The position numbers and the translations under genes are program-made. A DNA stretch of 64,000 nucleotides from Vogesella indigofera (GTDB taxonomy: Bacteria; Pseudomonadota; Gammaproteobacteria; Burkholderiales; Chromobacteriaceae): positions 62,001-126,000 of the forward strand of contig NZ_RBID01000018.1 in assembly GCF_003633895.1 (NCBI RefSeq). The letters run 5' to 3'. Shown one piece after another: positions 41,989 through 56,966 of this stretch. Each line of letters opens with the position of its first letter. The stretch's first letter is position 1. A model generated the notes under the pieces. It saw only the letters and a list, made by a program, of their open reading frames with translations. It ran no database searches and was not told the origin of the DNA.

Positions 41989-41991
41989 CGG

Positions 41992-42864
41992 CTACTCCTC
42001 AACGTTGGCCGCAGCGCGGTGGATGCGTGGCGCCAGCGCCTGCCAGATCGGCTGGCAGATCGGCGGCAGGTCGGTGGTGCTGCCGACATCGCGGCCGCCC
42101 TCGCCAGGGGCATGGAAATCGCTGCCGGCGCTGGCGTACAGGCCGTGCTTCTGCGCCACCAGCGCGAAGCGCAGCATGTCGTCCAGGCTGTGGCTGCCGC
42201 TGACCACTTCCAGCGCCTCGCCGCCGGCGGCCTTGAAATCGGTCACCAGCCGCTCGATCAGGGTGCGGCCCATGTCGTAGCGGCCGGGATGGGCGATCAC
42301 CGCCATGCCGCCGGCGCCGCGGATCCAGCCGACCGCATCTTCCAGCGTCGCCCACTCGTGCGCGACGTAGCCGGGCTTGCCGGTGGTCAGGTATTTGCGG
42401 AACACGCTCTTGACGTCCTTCACCTCGCCGCTTTGCACCAGATAGCGGGCAAAGTGGGTGCGGCCGATCATCTCCGGATTGGCCGCCAGCCGCATCGCGC
42501 CGTCGAAGACGCCGGGAATGCCGATCTTGGCCAGCGATTCGCCCATCTGCCGCGCGCGCTCGACGCGGCCGTCGCGGATCGACTGCAGCCCGGCGCACAG
42601 CGCCGCGTTGTCCGGGTCGATGCCGAGGCCGAGGATGTGCACGGTGTGGCGCGCGTTCCACGTTACCGACACCTCGACGCCGTCGAGGAAATCGACACCG
42701 GCGGCCAGCGCCGTGGCGCGCGCCTCGGCCAGCCCGGCAGTGCAGTCGTGGTCGGTCAGCGCCAGCAGGCGGGCCTCGCGCGCCGCGGCACGCCGGATCA
42801 CCTCTGCCGGCGGCAGGCCGCCGTCGGAGGCGGTGGAATGAAAGTGCAGGTCGATGCTCGCCAT
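41992..42864 (-). CDS. rnm: PHP-domain exonuclease, RNase AM type
   Basis: 290 residues. PHP metal-binding motifs DLHFHSTASDGGLPP at the N-terminus, ALTDHDC and, later, HPGRYDMG and GSDFHAPGEGG. The E. coli homologue (YciV/RNase AM) trims 5' ends of rRNA. The ATG at 42864 is chosen; the longer frame would overlap the next gene. An exact iterated motif encodes part of its C-terminus (Ala-Ala-Asn-Val, then Glu-Glu-stop). Confidence 0.9.
   Translation of the reverse strand: MASIDLHFHSTASDGGLPPAEVIRRAAAREARLLALTDHDCTAGLAEARATALAAGVDFLDGVEVSVTWNARHTVHILGLGIDPDNAALCAGLQSIRDGRVERARQMGESLAKIGIPGVFDGAMRLAANPEMIGRTHFARYLVQSGEVKDVKSVFRKYLTTGKPGYVAHEWATLEDAVGWIRGAGGMAVIAHPGRYDMGRTLIERLVTDFKAAGGEALEVVSGSHSLDDMLRFALVAQKHGLYASAGSDFHAPGEGGRDVGSTTDLPPICQPIWQALAPRIHRAAANVEE
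42000..42012 (-). repeat. Iterated 13-mer, exact copy (CGTTG form)
   Basis: In the last codons of the RNase AM gene, read as Ala-Ala-Asn-Val. Confidence 0.85.
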
Positions 42865-42865
42865 G

Positions 42866-43060
42866 TCAGTTACCGGGCTTGGCCGCCTGGCGTGCCGCTT
42901 CGCGCGCCTGCCAGTCCGCCAGTTGGCGGCGGTAAAGCTGCACCGCCGCATTGTAGGTGTCCCACACGCAGGGATCGCAGCCGCTGCCGCAGCACATGTC
43001 GTCGCTCGGTGCTTCCGGTGCCTCCGGCATCGGGTCGAACACGTCGTCCGTCACGCTCAC
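42866..43060 (-). CDS. Small oxidoreductase-like domain protein
   Basis: 64 residues. The Oxidored-like signature CCGSGCDPCVWDTY is complete, with four cysteines that could bind metal or an Fe-S cluster. Function is unknown. GTG start at 43060 overlapping the TGA of the S4 gene (GTGA), so it is translated by coupling. Its stop is 1 nt from the RNase AM start. Confidence 0.82.
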   Translation of the reverse strand: MSVTDDVFDPMPEAPEAPSDDMCCGSGCDPCVWDTYNAAVQLYRRQLADWQAREAARQAAKPGN

Positions 43061-43272
43061 GCCGCAATCACCTTGATCTCGAAGCCGTCGCCGGACACCA
43101 CTTGCCCGGCGCGGATCTTGTTGGTCTTGCGCAGCTCGACCTGGCCGTCGACCAGCACATTGCCCTCGGCAATGAACTGCTTGGCGATGCCGCCGGTCTC
43201 CATGATGCCGGTGGTCTTGAGCAGATCACACAACGCGATGTATTCACCGCGCAATTCAAAGATTTCGTTCAT
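43057..43272 (-). CDS. S4-domain RNA-binding protein (YbcJ-like)
   Basis: 71 residues. A single S4 fold: FELRGEYIALCDLLKTTG, then GGIAKQFIAEGNVLVDGQVELRK. Similar in size to YbcJ of E. coli, which binds RNA; target unknown. ATG at 43272; the longer frame from 43326 runs through the repeat region. Heads a coupled chain S4, oxidoreductase-like, RNase AM, YciO. Confidence 0.85.
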   Translation of the reverse strand: MNEIFELRGEYIALCDLLKTTGIMETGGIAKQFIAEGNVLVDGQVELRKTNKIRAGQVVSGDGFEIKVIAA

Positions 43273-43290
43273 GTTCTGCACACTGTCTTT

Positions 43291-43380
43291 TGACAGCCTT
43301 GTGAGTGGCCTGTGCATAAGCGGCACAAGCCATTGATCAAATTAGTCATTTTCACGCTGCCCATTTTTTGGGCAGCGACG
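43291..43380 (+). repeat. Intergenic repeat, unit 1
   Basis: Degenerate about 90-bp unit shared with units 2-4. Order of conserved parts: GTGAGTGGCC, a DnaA-box-like TGTGCATAA (43311-43319), CACAAGCCATTGATC, and a T-rich hairpin CTGCCC/GGGCAG. Confidence 0.65.
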
Positions 43381-43403
43381 CCAGACTTTCCACACCACGA
43401 CGG

Positions 43404-43493
43404 GACAGGGCTGTTGAGTGGCTGTGGACAAGCGCCACAAGCTACTGATCAGACAGGGAAAAGTCGCGACTGTTCAAAAATTGGGCAGCTGCG
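43404..43493 (+). repeat. Intergenic repeat, unit 2
   Basis: TGAGTGGC, TGTGGACAA (43423-43431), CACAAGCTACTGATC, A-rich run and GGGCAGC. Its end includes the stop codon of the NadR-like gene. Confidence 0.65.
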
Positions 43494-44037
43494 GCAGCCA
43501 CGACTGCAGCGCGCGCCACGCTGCGGCCAACCTTGCCTGCCGCGTCCCGGCCAGCAGCAGCGGCGTGACGCCGGCGTCGGCCAGCGCCTGTTGATACAGG
43601 CCGAACAGCCAGTCGCGCTGCTGCGGATGGCTGCGCAGCGGATCCGGCTGCCACGGGATGTCGGGACAGGCCAGCAGCGTCAGCGCGTAGTCCTGCGGCC
43701 GGTCCAGCGCCAGCAGCGCCGGCTCGGCCTTGCCGAACGCCACCTGCGCCCAGATGCGGCAGGTCAGCACCGTGGTGTCGCACAGCAACACGCGGGCACC
43801 ACTGGCCGCGGCGGCGGCTTCAGCCGCCAGCTGGCCACGGGCAATCGCCAGGATGTCGGCGGGGCTGACGTGGTAGGCGCGCGCGGCGTAATACGCGCGC
43901 GCGTACTCCGGCACCCACGCGGCGGCGATGCCCTGCGCCTGCAAGGCGGCACCCAGCTCGGCAGCCAGCGTGCTCTTGCCGCAGGACTCCGGCCCGACAA
44001 TGGCAAGCCGTAACGGCACGGGATAAGTCGGCAACAT
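43474..44037 (-). CDS. NadR-like nicotinamide riboside kinase-type ATPase
   Basis: 187 residues. P-loop GPESCGKSTLAAELG near the N-terminus, then WVPEYARAYY and LLCDTTVLTCRIWAQ, as in the kinase domain of NadR (AAA_28). It lacks the HTH and adenylyltransferase domains. Likely phosphorylates nicotinamide riboside in NAD salvage, but no pnuC transporter is adjacent. Flanked on both sides by pairs of the intergenic repeat. Confidence 0.8.
   Translation of the reverse strand: MLPTYPVPLRLAIVGPESCGKSTLAAELGAALQAQGIAAAWVPEYARAYYAARAYHVSPADILAIARGQLAAEAAAAASGARVLLCDTTVLTCRIWAQVAFGKAEPALLALDRPQDYALTLLACPDIPWQPDPLRSHPQQRDWLFGLYQQALADAGVTPLLLAGTRQARLAAAWRALQSWLPQLPNF
43523..43535 (+). repeat. Iterated 13-mer, exact copy
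   Basis: Antisense in the NadR-like gene, read as Arg-Leu-Ala-Ala. Confidence 0.85.
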
Positions 44038-44077
44038 AAGCCGCCATTATACGCTGTGCACCGGCTGCACGGAAAAC

Positions 44078-44110
44078 GCCCACACGCTGCGGGGACAGCA
44101 GTGTGGGCGG
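44078..44110. other. Hairpin upstream of the NadR-like gene
   Basis: CGCCCACAC/GTGTGGGCG with an inner CTGC/GCAG, a strong interrupted stem 40 bp before the gene; no T run. Confidence 0.45.
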
Positions 44111-44184
44111 CATGTGTACGCGCTGTGGACAACTGCGCTAACTGACTGATGGCAAAGGGCAAGCCGCGCGCTGCACAAAAAACA
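44095..44184 (+). repeat. Intergenic repeat, unit 3
   Basis: GTGTGGGCGGC, TGTGGACAA (44124-44132), ACTGACTGATGG, then CTGCACAAAAAACAGGCAG. The most diverged of the four. Confidence 0.55.
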
Positions 44185-44214
44185 GGCAGTGGCGACGATT
44201 TACCCACGGCCGGA

Positions 44215-44308
44215 CTGCATAGCGCTGTGGGCGGCCTGTGGACAAATACCGCAAGCCATTGATCCGGCAGGCAGAAAAAGCCGGCGCCTGTTTTTTAGGC
44301 AGCCGGCG
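44215..44308 (+). repeat. Intergenic repeat, unit 4
   Basis: CTGTGGGCGGCC, TGTGGACAA (44237-44245), GCAAGCCATTGATC, and a GCCGGC/GCCGGC hairpin around a T run that contains the ansA stop codon. Confidence 0.65.
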
Positions 44309-45293
44309 TCAGCTCGCCGCGGCAGTCTTCCGCCAGTCGCGCGCGGACTTCTGCGGGGCTCAGCGGCTGCGACAGCAGCCACAGCAGCTTGGCCTGCGCC
44401 GCTTCCGGCGTCATGTCGCCACCGGCCACCGCACCGGCCTGCGCCAGCGGCTGGCTGGCCGCGTAGGCGCCGACCGCCACCGCGCCACGCACGCACTGGG
44501 TCAGGTTCAGCACCACGCAGCCCCTGGCGCTGGCGGCCTGTACCCCGGCCAGCAACTCGGTGTCGGCCGGGGTGTTGCCGTTGCCGTAGCTGAGCAGGAT
44601 CGCCGCCTGCGGCGTGTCCTGCGCCAACCAGCGGCCGAACGCCGCTGCCATCGCGCCGGGCAGCAGCATGCCGCAGCGGATGTCGGGGCTGGCCGGCAGC
44701 TGCGGCCGGAACGGGCCGCTGGCCTGGCGCCAGCCGGCGCGGTGCCACTGCGGCTGGATGCCGAACTGCGCCAGCGGCGGCGCATTGGGGCTGTCGAAGC
44801 CGGCAAAGCTGGCGGCGTCCAGCTTGCGTGCGCGCACGCCGCGCAGCAGCAGGCGGTTGAAGCTGATCGCCACCTCGTGCAGCTCGCTCTGGCAGGCGGC
44901 CTCGATCGCGTCGGCGAGGTTGCCCCAGCCGTCGCTGCGCGGGTGCACCAGCGGCAGCTGCGAGCCGGTGACCACCACCGGCTTGGCCAGTCCCTGCAGG
45001 CAGAACGCCAGCACGCTGGCGGTATAGGCCATGGTGTCGGTACCGTGGATCACCACAAAGCCGTCGAAGGCGTCATGGTTGGCCGCAATGTCGGCCACCA
45101 GCCGCTGCCAGTCGGCCAGCGTGATCGCCGACGAATCCAGCAGCGGCGCGTATTCGCGCACCTCCCAGCTCACCCCGTCGCGTGCCAGCCGCGCCAGCTG
45201 TTGCGGCAGGAAGCCGGGCACCGGCGCCAGCCCCTCGGGGGTGTGGTCCATGCCGATGGTGCCGCCGGTATAGAGAATGAGCAGTCGCTTCAT
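44295..45293 (-). CDS. ansA: L-asparaginase, type I (AnsA)
   Basis: 332 residues. Cytoplasmic asparaginase: YTGGTIGMD with the first catalytic threonine, VIHGTDTMAYTASVL with the second, and TGSQLPLVHPRSDGWGNL. It hydrolyses asparagine to aspartate. ATG at 45293 with AGGAG 8 nt upstream, chosen over 45314. Lacks a signal peptide. Its C-terminal codons run into repeat unit 4. Confidence 0.92.
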   Translation of the reverse strand: MKRLLILYTGGTIGMDHTPEGLAPVPGFLPQQLARLARDGVSWEVREYAPLLDSSAITLADWQRLVADIAANHDAFDGFVVIHGTDTMAYTASVLAFCLQGLAKPVVVTGSQLPLVHPRSDGWGNLADAIEAACQSELHEVAISFNRLLLRGVRARKLDAASFAGFDSPNAPPLAQFGIQPQWHRAGWRQASGPFRPQLPASPDIRCGMLLPGAMAAAFGRWLAQDTPQAAILLSYGNGNTPADTELLAGVQAASARGCVVLNLTQCVRGAVAVGAYAASQPLAQAGAVAGGDMTPEAAQAKLLWLLSQPLSPAEVRARLAEDCRGELTPAA

Positions 45294-45354
45294 CACAGGT
45301 ACTCCTGACAACAATGACTAAATGATAGGCGTCGCCCGCGGTGGCGGGCAGACG

Positions 45355-45390
45355 GAAAAACGGCGTGGCTCCGTGCCGGAGGCCACGCCG
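45355..45390 (-). terminator. Terminator of the NSS transporter gene
   Basis: CGGCGTGGC/GCCACGCCG (45361-45369 and 45382-45390), then TTTTTCCG on the minus strand. Confidence 0.85.
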
Positions 45391-45400
45391 CAGGTGACGG

Positions 45401-46723
45401 TTACAGATTGTGCACCAGGATACCGGCGATCAGCGCCGGCGCCACGTAGCGGCAGAAGCCGCGCATCGCCCGCAGCCAGGCCGGCACCCGCGCGCCGGCG
45501 GACAGCTCGGCCTCGATCACCGGCCACACCTTCCAGCCGACGAAGATCGCCAGCAGCACCTCGCCCACCGGCATCAGCAGCTTGGAGGTGAGGAAGTCGA
45601 GCAGGTCGAAGAAGCCGAGGCCGAACACGGTGTACTCGCTCCAGATGCCCAGCGACAGCGACGCCGGGATGCCCAGCAGGAACACCAGCAGCGACACGCC
45701 CAGCGCCGCCGCCTTGCGGCCAACCTTGAACTCGTCGATCACGAAGCTGACCACCACCTCCAGCAACGACACCGACGAGGTCAGCGCCGCCACCAGCAGC
45801 AGGAAGAAGAACAGCACCGCAAACAGCTGGCCGCCCACCATCTGCGCGAACACCGCCGGCATGGTGATGAAGGTCAGCCCCGGGCCGGCCGACGGATCGA
45901 ACCCGAAGGCGAACACCGCCGGCAGCACCATCAGTCCGGCAAGGAAGCAGGTCAGCACCGTCAGCGCGATCACCCACAGCGAGGAGCTGAGCAGGTTGGC
46001 CTCCTTATCGACGTAGGAGCCGTAGGTGATCATGATGCCCATGCCCAGCGACAGCGAGAAAAACGCCAGTCCCATCGCATCGACCAGCATGCTGCCGCTG
46101 ACCTTGGAGAAGTCCGGGGTCAGGAAATACAGCAGGCCTTCCATCGCACCGGGCAGGGTCAGCGCGCGCGCGATCAACACCAGCATCAGCACGAACAGCG
46201 CCGGCATCAGGAATTTCGACAGGTTCTCGATGCCCTTCTGCACGCCGCCGATCACCACCGCCAGCGTCAGGCCGGCAAACAGCCCGTGATACAGCAGCGG
46301 CAGCGCCGGATCGGTGATGAAGCCGTTGAAGATATCGCCCAGCACCTTGGCGTCGGAAGTCAGGATCTCGCCGCCGAACGACTTGCCGATATAGGCGATG
46401 GTCCAGCCGCCGACCACACTATAGAAAGAGTAAACCAGGAAACACACCAGCACGCCGACGAAGCCGACCAGCGGCCAGCGACCACCGCGCAGATCGCGGA
46501 AGGTGCCGACCGCGCTGTTGCCGGCGGCGCGGCCGAGTGCCATTTCGCCCAGCATCAGCGCCAGGCCGACACTGAGACAGATCAGGAAGTAAATCAGCAG
46601 GAACGCCCCGCCGCCATTGGTGGCGGCCACGTAGGGGAATTTCCAGATTGCGCCCAGGCCGATGGCCGAGCCGGTTGCTGCCAGGATGAAACCGAGGCGC
46701 GAGCCCCATTGAGATCTAGCCAT
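45401..46723 (-). CDS. Sodium-dependent transporter, NSS family
   Basis: 440 residues with about 11-12 membrane helices. N-terminal signature WGSRLGFILAATGSAIGLGAIWKFPY with the Na+ and substrate sites of LeuT-type transporters, and NGGGAFLLIY. Bacterial members carry amino acids; tryptophan or tyrosine import would fit the tnaA and phhA genes elsewhere in the window but is speculation. One exact iterated motif lies inside. Confidence 0.9.
   Translation of the reverse strand: MARSQWGSRLGFILAATGSAIGLGAIWKFPYVAATNGGGAFLLIYFLICLSVGLALMLGEMALGRAAGNSAVGTFRDLRGGRWPLVGFVGVLVCFLVYSFYSVVGGWTIAYIGKSFGGEILTSDAKVLGDIFNGFITDPALPLLYHGLFAGLTLAVVIGGVQKGIENLSKFLMPALFVLMLVLIARALTLPGAMEGLLYFLTPDFSKVSGSMLVDAMGLAFFSLSLGMGIMITYGSYVDKEANLLSSSLWVIALTVLTCFLAGLMVLPAVFAFGFDPSAGPGLTFITMPAVFAQMVGGQLFAVLFFFLLLVAALTSSVSLLEVVVSFVIDEFKVGRKAAALGVSLLVFLLGIPASLSLGIWSEYTVFGLGFFDLLDFLTSKLLMPVGEVLLAIFVGWKVWPVIEAELSAGARVPAWLRAMRGFCRYVAPALIAGILVHNL
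45716..45728 (+). repeat. Iterated 13-mer, exact copy
   Basis: Antisense in the NSS gene, read as Lys-Val-Gly-Arg-Lys, a third reading frame. Confidence 0.85.
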
Positions 46724-47005
46724 ACATCACTTCTTTTCAAAAACGGAACGAAAACCGCCGGCGGATAGCCGGCTGCGCAAGAAACCGCCAGGTCGGTGAA
46801 CCGGGCGGCTCGTCTGGCGCTCGTTGCAGCCGCCAGCCGGCATGATTGCTGCCGGCAAGCGGATGACTGCAGCCGGGTAGGCTGTCCGTCGCGGGCCAGG
46901 CAGGCGCAGTACCGGTTGACTGCGCGCCGCCGCCCGCTCAGGAAAGAACGCATGGCCTAGTCAGAAAGCCACGACCGCCCGCGGCCATGTCGGCAGGGGC
47001 GATCC

Positions 47006-47020
47006 TGTATACGGAATACA
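47006..47020. promoter_or_regulatory. Palindrome TGTAT-ACGGA-ATACA
   Basis: Perfect 5-5-5 inverted repeat in the gap between the NSS gene and the tRNA, reminiscent of GntR-type operators. Nothing else is seen in 46724-47077. Confidence 0.3.
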
Positions 47021-47077
47021 ATCGGCGAAAATACCATGTCTTCCGGCGCAGGGAAACCGCTGGCGGCCACGGCTGCG

Positions 47078-47106
47078 TTGCAAGGCGCACCCGCTATGCG
47101 TATACT
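47078..47106 (+). promoter_or_regulatory. Promoter of tRNA-Gly
   Basis: TTGCAA (47078-47083) and TATACT (47101-47106) with a 17-bp spacer, 16 bp before the mature tRNA end. Confidence 0.75.
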
Positions 47107-47121
47107 CTGCGCTCGCCTTGT

Positions 47122-47195
47122 GCGGGTGTAGCTCAATGGTAGAGCAGAAGCTTCCCAAGCTTACGACGAGGGTTCGATTCCCTTCACCCGCTCCA
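47122..47195 (+). tRNA. glyU: tRNA-Gly (anticodon CCC)
   Basis: 74 nt with encoded CCA. Acceptor GCGGGTG/CACCCGC, D-arm GCTC-AATGGTA-GAGC, anticodon loop TTCCCAA, T-arm GAGGG-TTCGATT-CCCTT, discriminator T. The outermost anticodon-stem pair is a G-A mismatch. Very like E. coli tRNA-Gly(CCC). Confidence 0.95.
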
Positions 47196-47236
47196 TGACC
47201 GCCCTCCCCCTTTGACCGTCCCAGAACCGCACGCCT

Positions 47237-49411
47237 ATGAACTGGAACTCCGGCCGGCTATGGCTCAAAATCTCCGTCTATACGCTGCTGACACTGGGCA
47301 TCCTGTTCGTTGCCATCCTGACGCTGTTCTTTACCCGTTTTGACGCCGACAGCGCGCGCCGCAACCTGGAGCGTTCGCTGGCCGACAGTGGCCGCACGCT
47401 GAGCATAGGTGGCACCATTTCGCCGATGCTGTTGCCGTCGCCGGGGCTGGAAATCAGCGAGGTGCGCGTCAGCGAACAGGACGGCAAGACCCCGTTTGCC
47501 CACGTCGCGCAGATCGAGGCACGGCTGGCATGGCTGCCGCTGCTGTTCGGCCGCCTGGAAATCACCCATGTCGCGCTGCACGACGCGCAGCTGACCGTGG
47601 TGCGCCAGACCGACGGCAGCCTCAACTTTGCCGACCTGCTGCGCAGCCGCCCGTCGAGCAAGTTCATGTTCAACCTCGATTCGCTGGCCATCAACGGCAC
47701 CCGCCTGGAATACCAGGACCGCGTCAACGGCCAGCTACTGAAGCTGGAGGACGCCAGCCTGCTGGCCGACGAACTGCGCGCCAATGCGCAGATGGCGTTC
47801 GGCGGCCGCCTGCAAAGCGGCGGCCGGCTGGTGAACCTGTCGCTGACCGCGCCGTTCACCCGCAACGACGACCAGATCGACATTCCGCAATTCAGCGCCA
47901 CCGCCATCAGCAGCAGCGAAGAATTGGGCGAGATCCGCGTCAACGCCAGCGGCAAGCTGCAGCTGAACCTGGCCACGCTGCTGGCGCAGGGCGAAGCGCT
48001 GAAGGTCGCCATCGACACCACCAAGCCGAGCAGCCACAGCGAGATCCTGATCCCCACCGTCAGCGCCAGCCTCAGCGAACTGAGCACGCCGGCGGCCAGC
48101 CTCAGCGGCAACATCAGCTACCAGCGCACGCAGTACCGTTTCAGCAGCCGGCTGGCACAGCTGCAGCTCAACCAGAACGGCCTGTTCGCCGCCAGCAGCA
48201 ATAACGACTTCTCGTGGAGCGTCGGCCCGCACTCGCTGAACATGGTGGTGCAGGCGCCGTTGAAGCTGGCGCAGTTCAGCCTGCTCAGCATGAGCCCGCT
48301 GACGCTGTCGGCACACCTGAAAACGCCGGAGCTGCCGCGCGGCCAACTGCGCGCCACGCTGCAGGGCGCGCTGGAAGGCGACCTCGCCGACAGCCGCCTC
48401 AACCTGCGCGTCAGCGGCGAGCTGGACGGCGCCAAGCTCGCCTCCACCATCACCCAGTACGGCTTTGTCGCGCCGCGCCACGAGGCGACGCTGTCGATCG
48501 GCAAGCTCGACCTCAACCGCTACCTGCCGGAACAGAAGGCGGAGCAGGCGGTGGCGCTGTTCCAGAACGACAAGCCGTTCCGCCTCGACTGGATGGACTT
48601 CATCAATGTGCAGGGCAAGCTCGCCATCGGCGAGCTGGCGGTCGGCAATTTCCGCGTCAACGGCATCAACGCGGATGTCACCGGCACCCCGCAGCAGCTG
48701 CAGCTGGACAACCTCACCGCCGACATCTACGAAGGCCACCTCACCGGCCGTGCCACGCTGTTCCGCGAGCGCATCCCGCGGCTGACGTTGCAGCAGGAGC
48801 TGACCGGGATGCAGATCCGGCCGCTGATGCTGGACCTGTTCGCCTTCAGCCGCATCGAAGGCAGCGGCAACGGCTGGGTGCAGCTGGAGGCGAAGGGGCA
48901 GTCGCTGCAGGCGCTGCGCAATACCCTCAACGGCAAGGTCGCCGCGCGGCTGGAGCGCGGCGCGCTGACCGGTATCGACCTCGTCGCCGCGCTGCGCGAC
49001 CTGCCTGGCGAGAGCGAACGCTGGAACGGCCCGGTCAGCACCGCGCCGGACCAGAAAACCACCTTCTCCGCGCTGTCGGCACAGTTCGAGCTGCAGGACG
49101 GCGTGGCGCGCAACCAGGACATGAAGCTGGCGTCGTCGCTGGTCAATGTCCGCGGCAGCGGCAAGTTCGACCTGACGCAGAGCATCATCGACTACACCCT
49201 GGACGTGCAGGCCAACCCCAGCGCCTTCGCCAGGCTGGGCGGCATCAGCATCCCGCTGAAGATAACCGGCCCGCTGCAGCAGCCGGTGTACTCGCTGGAT
49301 TTCAACGCCATGGTCAAGGGCAAGAAAACCGAGGGCGAGAAACAGCAGGTGCTGAAGCAGGAACTGGGCAAGCAGATCACCAGCATCCTGCCGGTCAAGC
49401 CGGCACCGTAG
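47237..49411 (+). CDS. AsmA family protein
   Basis: 724 residues. A cytoplasmic-membrane anchor (LKISVYTLLTLGILFVAILTL, about 9-31) is followed by a long periplasmic beta-rich region of the AsmA/TamB/YhdP class, with the C-terminal AsmA domain around LNGKVAARLERGALTGIDLV. These proteins bridge the envelope and move phospholipids to the outer membrane. Monocistronic: the tRNA is upstream and a motif-built terminator downstream. Confidence 0.9.
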   Translation: MNWNSGRLWLKISVYTLLTLGILFVAILTLFFTRFDADSARRNLERSLADSGRTLSIGGTISPMLLPSPGLEISEVRVSEQDGKTPFAHVAQIEARLAWLPLLFGRLEITHVALHDAQLTVVRQTDGSLNFADLLRSRPSSKFMFNLDSLAINGTRLEYQDRVNGQLLKLEDASLLADELRANAQMAFGGRLQSGGRLVNLSLTAPFTRNDDQIDIPQFSATAISSSEELGEIRVNASGKLQLNLATLLAQGEALKVAIDTTKPSSHSEILIPTVSASLSELSTPAASLSGNISYQRTQYRFSSRLAQLQLNQNGLFAASSNNDFSWSVGPHSLNMVVQAPLKLAQFSLLSMSPLTLSAHLKTPELPRGQLRATLQGALEGDLADSRLNLRVSGELDGAKLASTITQYGFVAPRHEATLSIGKLDLNRYLPEQKAEQAVALFQNDKPFRLDWMDFINVQGKLAIGELAVGNFRVNGINADVTGTPQQLQLDNLTADIYEGHLTGRATLFRERIPRLTLQQELTGMQIRPLMLDLFAFSRIEGSGNGWVQLEAKGQSLQALRNTLNGKVAARLERGALTGIDLVAALRDLPGESERWNGPVSTAPDQKTTFSALSAQFELQDGVARNQDMKLASSLVNVRGSGKFDLTQSIIDYTLDVQANPSAFARLGGISIPLKITGPLQQPVYSLDFNAMVKGKKTEGEKQQVLKQELGKQITSILPVKPAP

Positions 49412-49437
49412 ACGCAGCCGGGCACGAAGCATTGATT

Positions 49438-49450
49438 GCGGCCAACCTTG
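49438..49450 (+). repeat. Iterated 13-mer, exact copy (left arm)
   Basis: Left arm of the inverted pair after the AsmA gene. Confidence 0.85.
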
Positions 49451-49454
49451 GTAT

Positions 49455-49467
49455 CAAGGTTGGCCGC
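49455..49467 (-). repeat. Iterated 13-mer, exact copy (right arm)
   Basis: Right arm of the inverted pair after the AsmA gene. Confidence 0.85.
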
Positions 49468-49525
49468 AATGCTTTGTGCCGCAGGCAGACGAGGCAGCCC
49501 GGCTCAGCATGCTGACAGCTGCAGG

Positions 49526-49543
49526 CCCCGCGGTACCGCGGGG
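49526..49543. repeat. 18-bp perfect palindrome
   Basis: CCCCGCGGTACCGCGGGG, in the 300-bp gap 49412-49712 between converging genes. No gene is seen in that gap. Confidence 0.6.
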
Positions 49544-49656
49544 TGAGCACTGGGCACGAAACTGCTGTCGACGCTCAGCAACCGCCCGCCCGCGCCATGC
49601 ACACCGCCCCCCGCCGTCAAACCCGGCGTTGCGACACCGCAGCGGACCCAAAAAAA

Positions 49657-49690
49657 TGGCGGCCAACCCTGAAGCCAAGGTTGGCCGCCA
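49657..49690. terminator. Second motif-built hairpin, after the antiporter gene
   Basis: A one-mismatch copy (49659-49671, plus) faces an exact copy (49676-49688, minus). The stem ATGGCGGCCAACC pairs with its complement, with one internal mismatch just beyond it. On the minus strand it is followed by a T run (complement of the A run at 49650-49656), so it should terminate the antiporter transcript. Confidence 0.75.
49676..49688 (-). repeat. Iterated 13-mer, exact copy (intergenic)
   Basis: Right arm of the second inverted pair, 25 bp from the antiporter stop codon. Confidence 0.85.
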
Positions 49691-49712
49691 TCTCCGGCAA
49701 CAGTCTGCGCCA

Positions 49713-51677
49713 CTAGCCCTGCAGCAACAGCGCCTCCGCCTGCGCCAGCGCCGCCGGCCGGCCGAGCAGCACCAGCACATCGCCTTCCTGCAATTCCGAA
49801 TCCGCCGCCACGTGGGCGAGACGGACGTTGCGACGGCGGATGCCGCGCACCCCGACGCCGAGGCTGTCCAGCTTCACCCCGCCCAGCGGCATGCCGATGG
49901 CGTGGGCACCGGCCACCAGCTGCACGCTGAGCAGGCGCGGCTGATCGCTGTCGTCGATGCCGTCCAGCTCGTCGCTGGCGCCGCGGAAGAAGCCGGTGAA
50001 CAGGCTGTAGCGCTGTTCGCGCACGGTGCGGATGCGGCGCAGCACGCGGCTCATCGGCACCCCCATCACCATCAGCGCGTGCGAGGCCAGCATCAGGCTG
50101 CCTTCCATCACCTCGGCCACCACCTCGTCGGCGCCGGCTTCGCGCAGGCGGGTGATGTCGGAGTCGTCGATGGTACGCACGATCACCGGCAGGTCGCGGC
50201 GCAGGTCGTGCACCATGTGGATGATGCGCTCCGAGGCATGGGTATCGGCAAAGGTGATCACCACCGTCTTGGCGCGCATCGCGCCGGCCGCCATCAGCAC
50301 CTCGCGCTTGGCGGCATCGCCGAACACCACCGGGTCCCCCGCCTCGCCCGCCTCACGCACCCGCTCCGGATCCATGTCCAGCGCGAAAAAGGAAATGCCC
50401 TCCGCCTCCAGCAGGCGCGCCAGCGACTGGCCGCTGCGGCCATAGCCGCAGATGATCACGTGTTCGTCCTTGGCCATGCTCTGCACCAGTACCTGGTGCA
50501 GGTCCACCGCCTGCAGCGCCCAGTCCTGCTTGATCAGGCGGCTGCAGATGCGCTCGGCGTGCTGGATCAGGAACGGCGCCACCAGCATCGACAGCACGAT
50601 CGCCGCCAGCGCCGACTGCTCCACCGGCGACGAGATCAGCCCCAGGTTGCCGGACAGCGCCAGCAGCACGAAGCCGAATTCGCCGCCCTGCGCCAGCGCC
50701 AGCGCGCCTTTCAGGCTATCCCTGGCACGATGGCCGAACAGCCGCGCCAGCAGGTACACCACCGCCAGCTTCACCGGCAGCAACAGCAGCAGCATCACGC
50801 CGATGTCGCCGGCACGGTCGAGCAGCACGCCGATGTCCAGCTTCATGCCGACGGTGACGAAGAAGAAACCGAGCAGGATGTCGCGGAACGGCTTGATGTC
50901 CTCCTCCACCTGGAAGCGGTACTCCGTTTCCGAGATCAGCATGCCGGCGACGAAGGCGCCCAGCGCCAGCGACAGGCCGGCCAGCTGGGTGAGAAAGGCG
51001 ATGCCCAGCGTCACCAGCAGCACGTTGATGGTGAACAGCTCGCCGGAGCGCTGCCGTGCCACCAGGTGGAACCACGGCCGCATCAGGCGCTGGCCGAACA
51101 CCAGCAGCAGGCTCATCACCACCACCTTGACCAGCGCGAGGCCGAGGTCCATCCACAGCCGGTCAGAGTTGGCCGCAAACGCCGGCAGCAGGATCAGCAG
51201 CGGCACCACCGCCAGGTCCTGGAACAGCAGCACGCCGATCGCCAGCTGGCCGTGCGGCTGCGCCATTTCCAGCCGCTCCGACAGCAGCTTGCTGACGATG
51301 GCCGTCGACGACAGTGCCAGCGCACCACCGACGGCAAAGCCGGCCAGCGGGCTGCCGGTTAGCCACCACACGATGGCGCCGATCAGGAACAGGGTCAGCA
51401 GCACCTGCGCGAGGCCGATGCCGAACACCAGCTGCCGCATCGCCTTCAGCTTGGCCAGCGAGAACTCCAGCCCGATGGAGAACATCATGAACACGATGCC
51501 GATTTCGCCGAGGAATTCGGTCTCCTCGCCCTGCGGGATCAGGCTCATCACGCCGGGGCCGGCCATGAAACCGACCACCAGGTAACCCAGCATGGGTGGT
51601 ACGCGCAGACTGCGGCACGCGGTCACCGCCAGCACGGCGACCAGCAATACCAACACGATGGGAGACAGGGAGTGCAT
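49713..51677 (-). CDS. Monovalent cation:proton antiporter, CPA2 (KefB/YbaL type)
   Basis: 654 residues. About 12 membrane helices in the first 385 residues (GYLVVGFMAGPGVMSLIP, FALGGALALSSTAIV-type region). A TrkA-N Rossmann domain (about 405-520) has HVIICGYGRSGQSLARLL for NAD binding, and a TrkA-C domain (about 570-650) follows. Likely K+/H+ efflux controlled by a nucleotide or glutathione adduct. The ATG at 51677 is preferred to a TTG at 51716. Confidence 0.9.
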   Translation of the reverse strand: MHSLSPIVLVLLVAVLAVTACRSLRVPPMLGYLVVGFMAGPGVMSLIPQGEETEFLGEIGIVFMMFSIGLEFSLAKLKAMRQLVFGIGLAQVLLTLFLIGAIVWWLTGSPLAGFAVGGALALSSTAIVSKLLSERLEMAQPHGQLAIGVLLFQDLAVVPLLILLPAFAANSDRLWMDLGLALVKVVVMSLLLVFGQRLMRPWFHLVARQRSGELFTINVLLVTLGIAFLTQLAGLSLALGAFVAGMLISETEYRFQVEEDIKPFRDILLGFFFVTVGMKLDIGVLLDRAGDIGVMLLLLLPVKLAVVYLLARLFGHRARDSLKGALALAQGGEFGFVLLALSGNLGLISSPVEQSALAAIVLSMLVAPFLIQHAERICSRLIKQDWALQAVDLHQVLVQSMAKDEHVIICGYGRSGQSLARLLEAEGISFFALDMDPERVREAGEAGDPVVFGDAAKREVLMAAGAMRAKTVVITFADTHASERIIHMVHDLRRDLPVIVRTIDDSDITRLREAGADEVVAEVMEGSLMLASHALMVMGVPMSRVLRRIRTVREQRYSLFTGFFRGASDELDGIDDSDQPRLLSVQLVAGAHAIGMPLGGVKLDSLGVGVRGIRRRNVRLAHVAADSELQEGDVLVLLGRPAALAQAEALLLQG

Positions 51678-51759
51678 CGAAAAAACGGCTCCAGAAGAGA
51701 ATTGAATGGCGCTCAAGCAAAACTTGCACCTGCCAGGCAGTGCCCGGCGATTATAAGCT

Positions 51760-51767
51760 GATATAAT
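51760..51767 (+). promoter_or_regulatory. Extended -10 promoter of kdsD
   Basis: TGATATAAT (TGn-TATAAT, with TATAAT at 51762-51767) lies only 8 bp before the kdsD ATG, so transcription should begin at or next to the start codon. A good -35 is not visible, as is usual for extended -10 promoters. Confidence 0.55.
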
Positions 51768-51775
51768 TGCGCATT

Positions 51776-52756
51776 ATGAAAAATGACCAAAAACAATCCT
51801 GCCTCGCGCTGGCGCGCGACGTCCTCGCCATCGAGGCCGCCGCCATTACCCGGCTGGCGTCGCGACTGGACGACAGCTTCAGCGCGGCGGTCGCCCTGAT
51901 CCTGGCCTGCGAAGGCCGGGTGGTGGTCAGCGGCATGGGCAAGTCCGGCCACATCGGCAACAAGATCGCAGCCACGCTGGCCAGCACCGGCACGCCGGCG
52001 TTTTTCATGCATCCGGCAGAAGCCGCCCACGGCGACCTCGGCATGCTGACCGAACGCGACATCCTGCTGGCGCTGTCCAACTCCGGCGAGAGCGACGAAT
52101 TGCTGGCGCTGCTGCCGGCGCTGAAGCGCAAGGGCGTGCCGATCATCGCACTGACCGGGCGCTCGCAATCGACGCTGGCGACCGAGGCCAGCATCCACCT
52201 CGACGCCGGTGTGGAGAAGGAAGCCTGCCCGCTGGGGCTGGCGCCGACCGCCAGCACCACCGCGGCGCTGGCGCTGGGCGACGCGCTGGCGGTAGCGCTG
52301 CTCGACGCACGCGACTTCAAGCCGGAAGACTTCGCGCTGTCGCATCCCGGCGGCAGCCTCGGCCGCAAGCTGCTGGTCCACATCAGCGACCTGATGCACG
52401 GCGGCGAGGCGCTGCCGCGGGTCAACAGCGGCAGCAGCCTGAAGGACGCGCTGCTGGAGATGACGCGCAAGGGCCTCGGCATGACCGCGGTCTGCGCCGC
52501 CGACGGCCAGCTGCTCGGCATCTTCACCGACGGCGACCTGCGCCGCACGCTGGACAAGAGCCTGGATCTGGCCGGCCTGCGCATCGACGACGTGATGGCA
52601 CGCCAGCCGCGCACCATCGAGTCACACCGTCTGGCCACCGAAGCGGCCAACGAAATGGAACACCACAAGATCAACGGCCTGCTGGTCACCGACCGCGCCG
52701 GCAATCTGGTGGGCGCCCTGAACATGCACGACCTGCTCAAGGCAGGCGTGGTCTGA
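51776..52756 (+). CDS. kdsD: Arabinose-5-phosphate isomerase KdsD
   Basis: 326 residues. Converts ribulose-5-phosphate to arabinose-5-phosphate, first step of Kdo synthesis. SIS domain with SGMGKSGHIGNKIAATLASTG, SNSGESDE and KEACPLGLAPTASTT, then two CBS domains (about 205-320). An in-frame TTG at 51767 overlaps the -10 element, so the ATG at 51776 is taken. First gene of the lipopolysaccharide/rpoN block; kdsC starts 8 nt after its stop. Confidence 0.94.
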   Translation: MKNDQKQSCLALARDVLAIEAAAITRLASRLDDSFSAAVALILACEGRVVVSGMGKSGHIGNKIAATLASTGTPAFFMHPAEAAHGDLGMLTERDILLALSNSGESDELLALLPALKRKGVPIIALTGRSQSTLATEASIHLDAGVEKEACPLGLAPTASTTAALALGDALAVALLDARDFKPEDFALSHPGGSLGRKLLVHISDLMHGGEALPRVNSGSSLKDALLEMTRKGLGMTAVCAADGQLLGIFTDGDLRRTLDKSLDLAGLRIDDVMARQPRTIESHRLATEAANEMEHHKINGLLVTDRAGNLVGALNMHDLLKAGVV

Positions 52757-52764
52757 GAGACACC

Positions 52765-53289
52765 ATGCAAACCATTACCGAACTGGCCAAACGCACGCGA
52801 CTGCTGATCATGGATGTGGACGGCGTGCTGACCGACGGCCGCATCTTCATCACCGCCAGCGGCGAAGAGCTGAAAGCGTTCAACACCCTGGACGGCCACG
52901 GCCTGCGCATGCTGCAGTCCACCGGCGTGCAGTTGGCGATCATCACCGGCCGCGACGCGCCCGGCGTCGCCCACCGCGCCCGCGGCCTCGGCATCGACCA
53001 CTACTACGCCGGCGTACACGACAAGCGCACCGCGTTTGCCGAACTGCTGCACAAAACCGGCCTCACCGCCGAAGACTGCGCCTACATCGGCGACGACGTC
53101 ATCGACCTGCCGGTGATGAGCCGCGTCGGCCTGGCGGTGGCGGTACCGGACGCACCCAGCTTCGTGCGCCAGCACGCCCACTTCGTCACCGGTTGCAGCG
53201 GCGGCCAGGGCGCGGTGCGCGAGCTGTGCGAGCTGATCCTGCAGGCGCAGGGCAACTACGACCGCCTGATGGCCGGCTACCTGGCATGA
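52765..53289 (+). CDS. kdsC: 3-deoxy-D-manno-octulosonate 8-phosphate phosphatase KdsC
   Basis: 174 residues. HAD-family phosphatase without cap: MDVDGVLTDG (nucleophile Asp17), ITGRD, K in HDKRTAF and GDDVIDLPVM. Releases Kdo from Kdo-8-phosphate. Its stop overlaps the lptC start (ATGA at 53286-53289). Confidence 0.95.
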   Translation: MQTITELAKRTRLLIMDVDGVLTDGRIFITASGEELKAFNTLDGHGLRMLQSTGVQLAIITGRDAPGVAHRARGLGIDHYYAGVHDKRTAFAELLHKTGLTAEDCAYIGDDVIDLPVMSRVGLAVAVPDAPSFVRQHAHFVTGCSGGQGAVRELCELILQAQGNYDRLMAGYLA

Positions 53290-53849
53290 ACCGCGCCGCC
53301 CGCCTGTTTCCGCTGGGCCTGATGCTGGGCATGGCCCTGCTCGCCTTCTGGCTCAACGTGCTGACCATGCAGCGCGGCGATGCGCCGGGCAAGATAGACC
53401 TGAGCCGCCCGGAGTACACCATCAACCGGCTGACGGCAAAGCGCTTCGACGCCCAGGGCCGGCCGCAGCAATACCTGCAGGCGGCCCAGATGTGGCAACT
53501 GCCGCGCAATCCGAATGTCTATCTCAGCAAGCCGCGCATCGAAGTCTTCCTGCAGGGCATCCCCGACTACACGGTGACGGCCGCGGCCGGACGCTACCAC
53601 AAGCAGCAGAAAACGGCGGACTTCAGTGATAATGTGCGCTGGGAACGCAAGGCCACCGCCGACGCCCCGGCCATCCTGCTCCAGACCTCGGTGCTGCATG
53701 TCGACACCGTGGCGCGCAGCGCCAGCAACCGCGCGCCGCTGGTGGCCGACTACGGCACCTCGCAACTGAAATCGACCGGCTTCATTTACCAGCAGGACAG
53801 CGGCCAGCTGAACCTGCTGTCCAACGTAAGGATTACCTATGCGCCATAG
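53286..53849 (+). CDS. lptC: LPS export protein LptC
   Basis: 187 residues. An N-terminal membrane anchor (LFPLGLMLGMALLAFWLNVL) is followed by a periplasmic beta-jellyroll (YTINRLTAKRFDAQGRPQQYLQA). It links the LptBFG extractor to LptA. The ATG at 53286 overlaps kdsC, and the lptC end overlaps lptA by 11 nt. Confidence 0.92.
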   Translation: MNRAARLFPLGLMLGMALLAFWLNVLTMQRGDAPGKIDLSRPEYTINRLTAKRFDAQGRPQQYLQAAQMWQLPRNPNVYLSKPRIEVFLQGIPDYTVTAAAGRYHKQQKTADFSDNVRWERKATADAPAILLQTSVLHVDTVARSASNRAPLVADYGTSQLKSTGFIYQQDSGQLNLLSNVRITYAP

Positions 53850-54348
53850 TGTGCTGATCGCGCTGACCGCCCTCGTGCTGAGCGCCCCTGTCATGGCTGA
53901 AAAGGCTGACAGCGAAAAACCGATCGAACTGTCTGCCGACCGCGGCTCGCTGGACCAGAAAAAAGGCGTGACGGTATGGGAGGGCAATGTCGTGGTGGTG
54001 CAGGGCACGCTGAACCTGAAAGCGCAGCGCGTAACCGTGACCCGCGACGCGCAGGGCAACCAGCAGCTGCAGGCGCAGGGCAGCCCAGTCACCTTCCGCC
54101 AGAAAGTCGACGGCAGCAATGAATACGTCGAAGGCAGCGCCAGCAACGTCAACTACAACACTGCGGCCAACCTTGCCACCCTGACCGGCAACGCCCGCGT
54201 CAAGCGCGGCCAGGATTCGGTCAGCGGCGCCGTCATCGTCTACAACACCGCCACCGAAACCTATCAGGCCAGCGGCGGCACCGCCGCCAGCGGCAACAGC
54301 GGCCGCGTGACGGTGATCCTGCAGCCCAAAGCACAGGGCACGCCATGA
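53839..54348 (+). CDS. lptA: LPS transport periplasmic protein LptA
   Basis: 169 residues. Signal peptide [20 protein letters not shown], then an OstA-type beta-jellyroll ([33 protein letters not shown] in part). It forms the periplasmic bridge for lipopolysaccharide. An iterated motif lies in it. Stop overlaps lptB (ATGA at 54345-54348). Confidence 0.93.
54163..54175 (+). repeat. Iterated 13-mer, exact copy
   Basis: In lptA, read as Ala-Ala-Asn-Leu. Confidence 0.85.
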
Positions 54349-55073
54349 CCCCGAGCCAGCTTTCCATCCAGCACCTGAAGAAGACCTTCAAGAAGCGTAC
54401 CGTGGTGCGCGACGTGTCGCTGGAGATCGCCAGTGGCGAGGTGGTCGGCCTGCTCGGCCCTAACGGCGCCGGCAAGACCACCAGCTTCTACATGGTGGTC
54501 GGCCTGATCGCCGCCGATGCCGGTGAAATCCGCCTCGACGGCCAGACCATCACCCACCTGCCGATCCACCAGCGCGCGCGGCTCGGTCTCGGCTATCTGC
54601 CGCAGGAAGCGTCGATCTTCCGCAAAATGACGGTAGACGAGAACATCCGCGCGGTACTGGAAATTGCCGGGCTGAAGGACGAGGAGCTGGAAAACGAGCT
54701 GACCCTGCTGCTGGACGACCTCAACATCAGCCACCTGCGCGACAGCAACGCGCTGGCACTGTCCGGTGGCGAGCGCCGCCGCGTGGAAATCGCCCGCGTG
54801 CTGGCCACCCGTCCGCGTTTCATCCTGCTGGACGAGCCGTTTGCCGGCGTCGACCCGATCGCGGTGATCGACATCCAGAAGATCATCGCCTTCCTCAAGG
54901 AACGCGGCATCGGCGTGCTGATCACCGACCACAACGTGCGCGAAACGCTGCGCATCTGTGACCGTGCCTACATCATCTCCGAAGGCAGCGTGCTCGCCTC
55001 CGGCCTGCCGGAAGCGCTGGTGCTGAACGAACAGGTACGCCAGGTGTACCTGGGCGAACACTTCCACCTGTAA
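54345..55073 (+). CDS. lptB: LPS export ABC transporter ATP-binding protein LptB
   Basis: 242 residues. Complete ABC ATPase: Walker [13 protein letters not shown]-loop region [13 protein letters not shown], signature [16 protein letters not shown], Walker [14 protein letters not shown]. Powers extraction of lipopolysaccharide with LptFG, which are outside the window. rpoN follows after 3 nt. Confidence 0.97.
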
Positions 55074-55076
55074 GCC

Positions 55077-56522
55077 ATGAAACAGACCCTCCAGCTCAAA
55101 ACCAGCCAGCAGCTCACGCTCACCCCCCAGTTGCAGCAATCGATCAAGCTGCTGCAGATGTCGACGCTGGATCTCAGTACCGAGCTGGAGCGCTACCTGC
55201 TGGAAAACCCGCTGCTGGAACGTGCGGACAGCAGCGACAGCCCCGACGAGTCCGACAGCCCGTTGCCGGTGCTGGCGCCCAGCGGTGACACGCCGGCGGC
55301 GGACAGCGGCAGCGAGCCGGAGCGAGCGGAAGCGGAAAGCAACCGCGACGACGGCGAGCTGCTCGGCGACTGGGGCAGCAGCGGGAGCGGCAGCAGCCGC
55401 AACGATGACGACGACGAGTTCGACCCCATTCTCAACACCCCGTGCCGGCCGTCCCTGCGCGAGCACCTGACCGCGCAGATGGGCGAAACCCAGCTCAGCC
55501 AGCGCGACAAGGCGCTGATGTCGCTGCTGATCGACGAGCTGGATGACGACGGCTATCTGCCGACCTCGCTGGACGACATCGCCGCCGAGCTGCCGCTGGA
55601 GCTGGAAGTGGAAGGCGACGAGCTGGAATGCCTGCGCAAGCTGCTGACCCAGTTCGAGCCGACCGGCATCGGCAGCCGCAACCTCACCGAATTCCTCAGT
55701 CTGCAACTGCAGCAGCACGCGGCACCGGCCGCGGTACGCCAGCTGGCGCTGGACATGGTGCAGCAGCACCTGCCGCTCCTGGGCAACCGCGACTTCACCA
55801 AGCTCAAGAAGCTGCTCGCCATCGACGAACAGCAACTGAAAACCGCCCACGCCCTGCTCGCCAGCCTGCGGCCGCGCCCCAGCAGCGGTTTCGACCAGGG
55901 CGAGACCCACTACGTCGCCCCCGACATCCTGGTGGTGAAACGCCAGCAGCGCTGGGTGGCGCGCCTCAACCAGGGCACGCTGCCCAAGCTGCGCGTCAAC
56001 CAGATGTATGCAGGCATGCTACAACAGAAGGGCAGCAGCCATAATCTAGGCGGCCAGCTGCAAGAGGCGCGCTGGCTGGTAAAAAACATTCAACAACGGT
56101 TTGACACCATCCTGAAAGTGGCAGAATCTATTGTTGACAGACAGCAAGCGTTCTTTGAACAAGGTGAAGTGGCCATGCGCCCGCTCATCCTGCGAGACAT
56201 CGCGGAAGAACTGGGGCTGCATGAGTCAACCATCTCCCGCGTCACCACGCAGAAATACCTGCTGTGCAGCCGTGGCTTGTTCGAACTCAAATATTTCTTT
56301 GGCAGTTCGGTCGATACTGACAGTGGTGGCGAATGTTCCGCCACCGCAATCAAGGCACTGATCCGGCAGATCATCGATACGGAAGACCACAACAAACCAC
56401 TGTCTGACAGCGCCATTGCCGACAAGCTGATCGCTCAAGGTATTCAGGTTGCAAGACGTACCGTAGCCAAGTATCGTGAAGCCATGCAGATACCGCCGGT
56501 CAGCCAGCGCAAGACTTTTTAG
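55077..56522 (+). CDS. rpoN: RNA polymerase sigma-54 factor RpoN
   Basis: 481 residues. Glutamine/leucine-rich region I (LKTSQQLTLTPQLQQSIKLLQ in part), an acidic low-complexity region II (about 50-115), a core-binding region, a helix-turn-helix (LGLHESTISRVTTQKY) and the RpoN box ARRTVAKYRE that reads the -24 element. Start 3 nt after the lptB stop. Codons in the last third are noticeably less GC-rich than in the first part. Confidence 0.97.
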   Translation: MKQTLQLKTSQQLTLTPQLQQSIKLLQMSTLDLSTELERYLLENPLLERADSSDSPDESDSPLPVLAPSGDTPAADSGSEPERAEAESNRDDGELLGDWGSSGSGSSRNDDDDEFDPILNTPCRPSLREHLTAQMGETQLSQRDKALMSLLIDELDDDGYLPTSLDDIAAELPLELEVEGDELECLRKLLTQFEPTGIGSRNLTEFLSLQLQQHAAPAAVRQLALDMVQQHLPLLGNRDFTKLKKLLAIDEQQLKTAHALLASLRPRPSSGFDQGETHYVAPDILVVKRQQRWVARLNQGTLPKLRVNQMYAGMLQQKGSSHNLGGQLQEARWLVKNIQQRFDTILKVAESIVDRQQAFFEQGEVAMRPLILRDIAEELGLHESTISRVTTQKYLLCSRGLFELKYFFGSSVDTDSGGECSATAIKALIRQIIDTEDHNKPLSDSAIADKLIAQGIQVARRTVAKYREAMQIPPVSQRKTF

Positions 56523-56584
56523 GTTGTTCATAACAAGATCGCCATGCCCAGTCCGGATATGGCACCAACAGAAGGAGTTAGGGT

Positions 56585-56905
56585 ATGAACCTCAAGATTA
56601 CCGGCCTCCACCTCGACGTTACCCCGGCGCTTCGTGACTACATCGAAAGCAAACTGGAACGCATTACCCGCCATGTCGATAATGTGATCGGTGTCAACGT
56701 GACACTGTCTGTCGACAAACTGGTACAGAAAGCCGAAGTCAATGTTCACCTGGCAGGCAAGGATATCCATGCCGAAGCCACCGAAGCGGACATGTACGCG
56801 GCCATCGACCTGCTGACTGACAAACTGGATCGTCAGGTACTGAAATTCAAGGAAAAACAGGTCGAGCATCGCGCACCGGTACCGCAAGAGCAAGCGTCGC
56901 TCTGA
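56585..56905 (+). CDS. hpf: Ribosome hibernation promoting factor
   Basis: 106 residues, short HPF type. Beta-alpha fold: [36 protein letters not shown] and [19 protein letters not shown]. It dimerises and silences 70S ribosomes in stationary phase. In the classic position between rpoN and ptsN, but followed by a strong terminator. Confidence 0.95.
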
Positions 56906-56924
56906 TCAGGATTTGCCGAACAAA

Positions 56925-56966
56925 AACGGATAATGCAAGCACTGCTTGCTTATCCGTTCTTTTTTT
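56925..56966 (+). terminator. Strong terminator after hpf
   Basis: AACGGATAA-t-GCAAGC/GCTTGC-TTATCCGTT (56925-56940 and 56944-56958), 3-nt loop, then C and seven T. ptsN therefore needs its own promoter or read-through. Confidence 0.93.

Follow-up and report, generated by a model that had tools for sequence, protein, structure and literature searches.

A repeated word with a CCG core as a probable DNA uptake sequence in Vogesella indigofera and other Chromobacteriaceae

In the stretch of Vogesella indigofera DNA analyzed here (64,000 nt; hereafter the window), an AsmA-family gene on the plus strand and an antiporter gene on the minus strand converge on two hairpins (Table 1). All four hairpin arms contain the same word, cAASGTTGGCCGCA, arranged as inverted pairs, and this word is highly repeated in the genome and in part of the family Chromobacteriaceae. 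Its letters, abundance, placement and candidate receptor were compared with those of the DNA uptake sequences (DUS) of the Neisseriaceae, and the comparison indicates that the word is very likely a DUS-like tag for uptake whose core, CCG, is new.

Both hairpins lie between the converging genes, where the preliminary description had placed them, and the first is indeed a perfect 16-bp stem with a GTAT loop: its two 16-nt arms (49435-49450 and 49455-49470) show 100% complementarity across the 4-nt loop, and folding of the plus strand gave -30.1 kcal/mol. The second had been described as a near-perfect stem at 49657-49690 flanked by a T run on the minus strand; stem and T run were found, the stem extending by one further base on either side (49656-49691). 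Its arms (49656-49671 and 49676-49691) are 94% complementary, the mismatch in the DNA becoming a G.U pair in the minus-strand RNA, for which folding gave 17 pairs and -32.4 kcal/mol. The seven A at 49650-49656 correspond to seven U in the same RNA, the first being the final base of the stem and the other six lying directly beyond it. Pair 1 begins 23 nt past the AsmA stop codon (motif core, 26 nt), and pair 2 begins 21 nt past the antiporter stop codon (motif core, 24 nt). As the plus-strand flank of hairpin 1 is AATGCTTTGTG, with no real T run, hairpin 2 alone qualifies as a candidate intrinsic terminator of the classical kind, namely that of the antiporter gene on the minus strand; in this detail the first hairpin departs from the terminator-like character earlier ascribed to both. 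A generic terminator scan was uninformative, as it returned 9 sites in 10 kb versus 7.3 (standard deviation 3.0) in shuffles; it found hairpin 2 in another register and missed hairpin 1. The two pairs are kept, with changed loops, in all three close relatives with an unbroken locus, the locus of genome G051 being broken by a contig end.

The repeat in the window is not due to chance, because GGCCAACC occurs there 34 times versus 3.06 in shuffles, and none of 100 shuffles reached that number. In 860 kb, GTTGGCCGCA was the top over-represented 10-mer (435 copies versus 6.3 expected), and AAGGTTGGCCGCA was found 193 times versus 0.08 expected. The core is strict: at positions 4-12 of AAGGTTGGCCGCA each single-base variant was seen 0-2 times, position 3 is either G (193) or C (90), and conservation ends beyond a unit of 13-14 nt, the consensus being followed by a weak A. 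Genome-wide, A[GC]GTTGGCCG has 1,940 copies versus 19 for its reversed control, and GGCCAACCTTG has 723 versus 1. This is the abundance of a DUS-type tag, namely a top word of about 10-12 letters with at least about 1,000 copies, on both strands.

We then examined how far the word extends, in surveys of 61 genomes of the family and 300 genomes of the order. Within the family, 23 of the 61 genomes carry 24-723 copies of GGCCAACCTTG and the other 38 carry 0-9. A[GC]GTTGGCCG has 552-1,940 copies in the five motif-bearing family members of the order sample and at most 112 outside the family (control 56), where some genomes reach about four times the control (e.g., G274, 95 versus 24). The exact pair pattern was found in at least 93 stretches across named genomes, at least 90 of them in records of Vogesella, Pseudogulbenkiania, Crenobacter, Paludibacterium, an Aquitalea metagenome-assembled genome (MAG), a Neisseriaceae MAG and beta proteobacterium L13; among the matches listed, three come from elsewhere (Patulibacter, a Christensenella MAG and a cyanobacterium MAG), with no more core copies within their 8 kb. 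Moreover, the top words found de novo vary by genus: GTTGGCCGCA in our genome and in G059, GTTGGCCGAA in G037 and G046, and GTTGGCCGAG in G034. In G046, which we take to be P. ferrooxidans 2002 and thereby Lutiella 2002, GTTGGCCGAA occurs 43 times in 140 kb versus 0.6 expected. Genome G010 (sample L222-L231) has two words together, GTTGGCCGAA (69) and GTTTGCCGAA (38), and few inverted pairs; this double word resembles the pair of dialects that has been reported in Simonsiella muelleri. Copy number also varies within Vogesella: five genomes, our own included, with ComP proteins (the DUS receptor discussed below) 83-100% alike have 650-723 copies of GGCCAACCTTG, and eight genomes with ComP 43-50% like our own have 218-324, with looser letters at -3 and -2 in G059, sampled from those eight. 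Nothing comparable to another dialect was found de novo in four of the 38 motif-less genomes (G003, G018, G039 and G030, 200 kb each). Words of other kinds were also seen. In 200 kb of G003 (sample L172-L181), GCCAAAAAGCAC/GTGCTTTTTGGC occurs 11 times versus 0.1 expected, and may be another terminator-like repeat; in our own sample of contig C1 a further word, CAGCCCCAG, is over-represented to a lesser degree (101 versus 15.5), and the overlapping CCAGCCCCA was found 16 times versus 2.3 in the G039 sample.

The family word is a 12-mer with a copy number comparable to that of the DUS of the Neisseriaceae, and with dialects that likewise differ by genus. Its form AGGTTGGCCGAA shares 9 of its 12 letters with AG-mucDUS (AGGTCGTCTGAA) and AG-simDUS (AGGCTGCCTGAA; PMC7371117), without any shift or change of orientation. 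When all dialects, orientations and shifts were allowed, 9/12 was reached by 0.7-1.3% of random or permuted 12-mers (P about 0.01), and for 10 of the 12 letters at least one known dialect has the same letter in the same place, a result reached in 0.7-0.8% of trials. According to the available part of Frye et al. (2013), all eight published dialects have CTG as positions +6 to +8 and an A in position +10. In our six samples A is favored at +10 in five (our genome, G059, G010, G037 and G046) and G in G034; in addition, the A/C difference at +9 among genera mirrors that between kingDUS and king3DUS. Two letters are new with respect to the known dialects, G at +5 and C at +7, the latter turning CTG into CCG. 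The uptake signal sequences (USS) of the Pasteurellaceae are similarly abundant short tags with paired copies in terminators, as far as described in the portion of PMC1852404 at hand, but their sequence is unrelated and they have a long AT-rich extension that is missing here; for their receptor a different minor pilin, ComN, has been predicted (PMC12616744, in the part available). Literature searches on the motif letters, on uptake sequences in Chromobacteriaceae and on Vogesella transformation yielded no report of the motif among the matches listed. The accessible text of Frye et al. (2013) states that no obvious DUS was found in five genomes of the Chromobacteriaceae group, Lutiella 2002 included; this word may be among the over-represented 10-mers that its Table S1D gives for Lutiella 2002 and Pseudogulbenkiania NH8B.

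A candidate receptor is encoded as well. Two proteins of our genome match PF16732. One, on contig C11, is a pilin of 142 aa (L253 6158-6586, minus strand) encoded near pilQ-aroK-aroB; with phmmer it matches over the receptor domain 2nba (E 8e-10), then 2m3k and 5hz7, all ComP structures according to the part of PMC12061091 available. Like ComP 2nba, it has a pilin start, an ENA.F.E.FY helix and a GS[FY]KLT.T.WP.LP loop. In two trees, built from few columns and from rows picked by similarity to our own ComP, the protein falls in one clade with Neisseriaceae ComP and apart from PilE-type pilins (99/98 and 100/100), and its gene sits between a fimT-like and a TPR-aroB gene in 13 of 13 Vogesella genomes. 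It is a ComP orthologue. The motif-less ComP rows formed one clade (90/92) in the first tree, which lacked G010, G045 and G051, and this clade dissolved once these were added in the second. The higher-scoring PF16732 protein (C5:200979-201236) was rejected as ComP, as it opens a minor-pilin operon, followed by GspH-type and PilV-type genes, and had no ComP structure among its PDB matches; the presence of PF16732 was also rejected as a discriminator, being found in 61 of 61 family genomes. Receptor-domain searches matched 55 of 61 genomes in each of the two families at E 0.01, motif-less Chromobacterium-type genomes included. What differs is the receptor loop: of the 23 motif-bearing genomes, 21 have the lysine of [FY]K before WP (G045 has R and G010 has T), compared with 0 of the 25 motif-less rows whose loop is readable (14 of group g3, 9 of g2 and 2 of g8), kinship being ignored in both counts. 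The count omits G041 (no loop) and G032 and G033 (weak matches without WP), and 10 of the 38 motif-less genomes gave no row. Among Neisseriaceae, the loop was readable in 16 of 20 loci and all 16 have K, these loci being best matches to our own ComP and not a fair sample. One motif-less genome, G029, which we take to be C. violaceum ATCC 12472, encodes a ComP-like pilin at L336 1501-1839 (G029:C1:808122-808460). In the part of Frye et al. (2013) available, no ComP was found in C. violaceum by BLAST. Neisseria ComP carries a DD region delimited by two disulfides, with four Cys (Berry et al. 2016, PMC4906244), and four Cys were found in 15 of the 16 Neisseriaceae rows read. L310 (Neisseriaceae G377) encodes a ComP-like protein with only two Cys, and therefore the DD region may not be universal in Neisseriaceae. 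The genome further encodes the PilQ secretin, ComEC (C9:9360-10142) and DprA (C2:94473-95084), which is a weak test, as the latter two families are common in control genomes.

It is conceivable, if rather unlikely, that the uptake motif has an independent origin and came to resemble DUS by convergence, its reader being ComP or a neighboring FimT-like pilin; this variant takes a lesser share of the probability that we give to an uptake sequence. In its favor are the CCG core, the missing second disulfide of ComP and a similarity in letters that reaches only P about 0.01. Moreover, a gene for a FimT-like pilin (L253 6580-7014, minus strand), a second candidate DNA receptor with no Pfam or NCBIfam match, shares 7 bases with the comP-like gene; in other bacteria, FimT is a mediator of DNA uptake (PMC8897410, in its available part). 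However, the receptors of both families stand in one clade, and the +9 difference repeats that of kingDUS and king3DUS, which speaks against an independent origin.

The placement of the word was analyzed on C1, a contig of 795.5 kb that makes up 22% of the genome and in which a home-made codon model called 752 genes (87% coding; gene edges approximate). Full-motif sites, defined as the core plus at least three of four flank letters, number 386 (218 genic, 162 intergenic and 6 straddling), with an intergenic density of 1.578 versus a genic density of 0.315 per kb, that is, 5 times higher. Density tracks GC content (rho 0.64, 32 bins). Most sites are unpaired; the intergenic single copies comprise 68 between tandem, 38 between convergent and 8 between divergent genes. 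Inverted pairs, counted from core-only sites with gaps of up to 26 nt, were found 31 times with the reverse complement first and 18 times with the forward copy first, versus 2.3 expected for each, whereas direct pairs number one. The former lie between convergent (13) and tandem (13) genes or within genes (5), the latter similarly (8, 8 and 2), and neither between divergent genes. Within 40 nt of a stop codon stand 20 of 26 reverse-complement-first (p 2e-10) and 11 of 16 forward-first intergenic pairs (p 2e-5), versus 18.9% for random intergenic placement; pooled, 31 of 42 do so and 0 of 42 are divergent, versus a divergent share of 22.7% at random. The enrichment of inverted pairs at gene ends, which the preliminary description had proposed to look for, was thus found, and by position the pairs are placed as DUS-type terminators are. 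Similar results were obtained for reverse-complement-first pairs in two relatives: 7 of 12 lie within 40 nt of a stop in G059 (0 divergent), and 7 of the 9 with measurable distance in G034 (10 pairs, 1 divergent). The corresponding numbers are 2 of 2 in G037, 2 of 3 in G046 and 0 of 1 in G010. Neisseria differs in preferring the forward copy first; its forward-first pairs are described with A and T tails, and several of ours likewise prolong the motif's AA flank into such tails.

The same placement would be expected of a terminator or repetitive extragenic palindromic (REP)-like repeat family, in which the word spreads or persists through pairs that end transcription or stabilize mRNA 3' ends, with no uptake involved. 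Besides the clustering of pairs beyond stop codons and the fivefold intergenic density, this is consistent with a T-rich adjacent 6-mer (5-6 T) beside 12 of 29 reverse-complement-first intergenic pairs of C1 and the window, versus 10.4% at random, the other 17 being without it. We nevertheless consider it improbable, as more than half of the C1 sites are genic and the majority unpaired, conservation is confined to the asymmetric 13-14 nt unit, and the dialects retain a common core; a REP or mobile element was rejected on account of the end of conservation outside that unit. Judged by letters and placement, it is more improbable still that the word is a DNA methylase target or serves chromosome maintenance or recombination in the manner of Chi, KOPS or HIP1, as the high copy number, genic copies and strict GGCC-containing core might suggest: Chi and KOPS show strand polarity, whereas the 206 plus-strand and 180 minus-strand sites of C1 showed no replication polarity in 25-kb bins, being mixed on either side of the GC-skew switch near 500 kb, and a polar motif was rejected on this ground; HIP1 is palindromic and this word is not; and flank preferences and gene-end pairs, both present here, are to our knowledge not features of Chi, KOPS or HIP1 motifs.

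Several observations weigh against a DUS-like uptake sequence, and the case for uptake is itself drawn from sequence comparison. The core is CCG and not CTG in the top words of all six motif-bearing genomes sampled, and the Vogesella form as such scores 8/12 against the known dialects, a value reached by 5-8% of trials and not significant alone. Our ComP obtains its best PDB E-values with PilE-type pilins, owing to the N-terminal helix that it shares with them, and the protein, as well as the family rows read, has two conserved Cys and no DD region. As the CTG core and the DD region are both lacking, we do not file the motif among the published DUS dialects. In addition, ComP-like genes occur in motif-less relatives, with 25 rows of readable receptor loop (g2, g3 and g8), and therefore the motif cannot be predicted from the mere presence of a receptor; of 14 control genomes, 10 also have the ComEC family and 11 the DprA family. 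Regarding the pairs, motif-bearing G010 has only one reverse-complement-first pair in 200 kb, 158 nt from a stop, and all 8 genomes of the second Vogesella clade lack the inverted pairs of the AsmA/antiporter site. Paired motifs by themselves are no proof of uptake; the earlier suggestion that the paired arrangement favors an uptake-like role gains its support from some 1,900 mostly unpaired copies, the dialects, the resemblance to DUS and the ComP orthologue.

The exact 13-mer copies of the window are collected in Table 1. Its four inverted pairs comprise three with the reverse complement first, all between converging genes, and one with the forward copy first, inside a gene. The longest motif-free stretch of C1, a low-GC island (C1:367342-393542; 26.2 kb, GC 0.55), has a chance probability of about 2e-5 and contains 14 called genes, of which eight were scanned, revealing a TniB ATPase, a Mu-type transposase and two more transposase/integrase-type genes. 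The stretch also has a TnsA-like match that falls below the cut-off, and it encodes a protein of 2,400 aa that matches Toprim. Such a content is what one would expect of a recently arrived island, and we count it in favor of an uptake sequence.

Table 1. Features of the window. Single motif copies are exact 13-mers, and the strand of a copy is that of CAAGGTTGGCCGC.
Feature	Position	Strand	Remarks
Whole window	1..64000	both strands	core GTTGGCCGC, 46 copies
AsmA-family gene, upstream of hairpin 1	47237..49411	+	PF05170, E 1.9e-40
Inverted motif pair 1	49435..49470	.	16-bp stem, all paired; loop GTAT; weak T tail
Seven-T run (minus strand) at foot of hairpin 2, terminator-like tail	49650..49656	-	sequence
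Inverted motif pair 2	49656..49691	-	16-nt arms, one DNA mismatch; 4-nt loop AAGC
Antiporter gene (Na/H-exchanger + TrkA-N/C); on the minus strand it lies upstream of hairpin 2	49713..51677	-	PF00999, E 8.5e-62
Inverted pair GCGGCCAACGTTGGCCGC with overlapping copies, 6 nt off a stop codon and flanked by converging genes	18099..18116	.	sequence
Motif copy	817..829	+	
Motif copy	3637..3649	-	
Motif copy	4785..4797	-	
Motif copy	14395..14407	-	
Motif copy	19073..19085	+	
Motif copy	21591..21603	-	
Motif copy	28397..28409	-	
Motif copy	31319..31331	+	
Motif copy	39448..39460	+	
Motif copy	41031..41043	+	
Motif copy	43523..43535	-	
Motif copy	45716..45728	-	
Motif copy	54163..54175	-	
Motif copy	61445..61457	-	

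As far as its anatomy tells, the motif would work as a DUS does. Free DNA carrying the word would be bound by a minor pilin of ComP type, which sits on the type IV pilus and whose gene lies near pilQ-aroK-aroB. Tagged DNA of the same kind would be taken up in preference, drawn in via PilQ and ComEC, guarded by DprA and integrated by recombination; many rounds of this process could then maintain the some 1,900 copies of the 10-letter part. Two head-to-head copies just beyond a stop codon would form a ready hairpin and, where a T run is added, as in hairpin 2, a putative intrinsic terminator.

Regarding its history, we give about even chances to the following proposal. Tagging of self DNA through DUS and ComP would predate the split between Neisseriaceae and Chromobacteriaceae, CTG would not be universal, and a CCG-core branch, read by a ComP without DD region, would exist in Vogesella, Pseudogulbenkiania and relatives, while Chromobacterium- and Aquitalea-like lineages would have kept a ComP with an altered loop and lost the tags. 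If true, the proposal would supersede the published account, in which DUS appeared after the lineage had separated from C. violaceum, reported to be without ComP. DUS recognition by ComP is a main example of bacteria selecting their own DNA, and how ComP reads DUS is described as unsolved in the available part of PMC12061091; a second dialect branch with a CCG core, together with ComPs lacking the DD region, would provide a natural mutant series for the reading residues, and the age and loss of the tagging system would become testable. It would also suggest a route to transform Vogesella and Pseudogulbenkiania, and would annotate some 1,900 otherwise unexplained repeats, plus many gene-end hairpins, in the genome.
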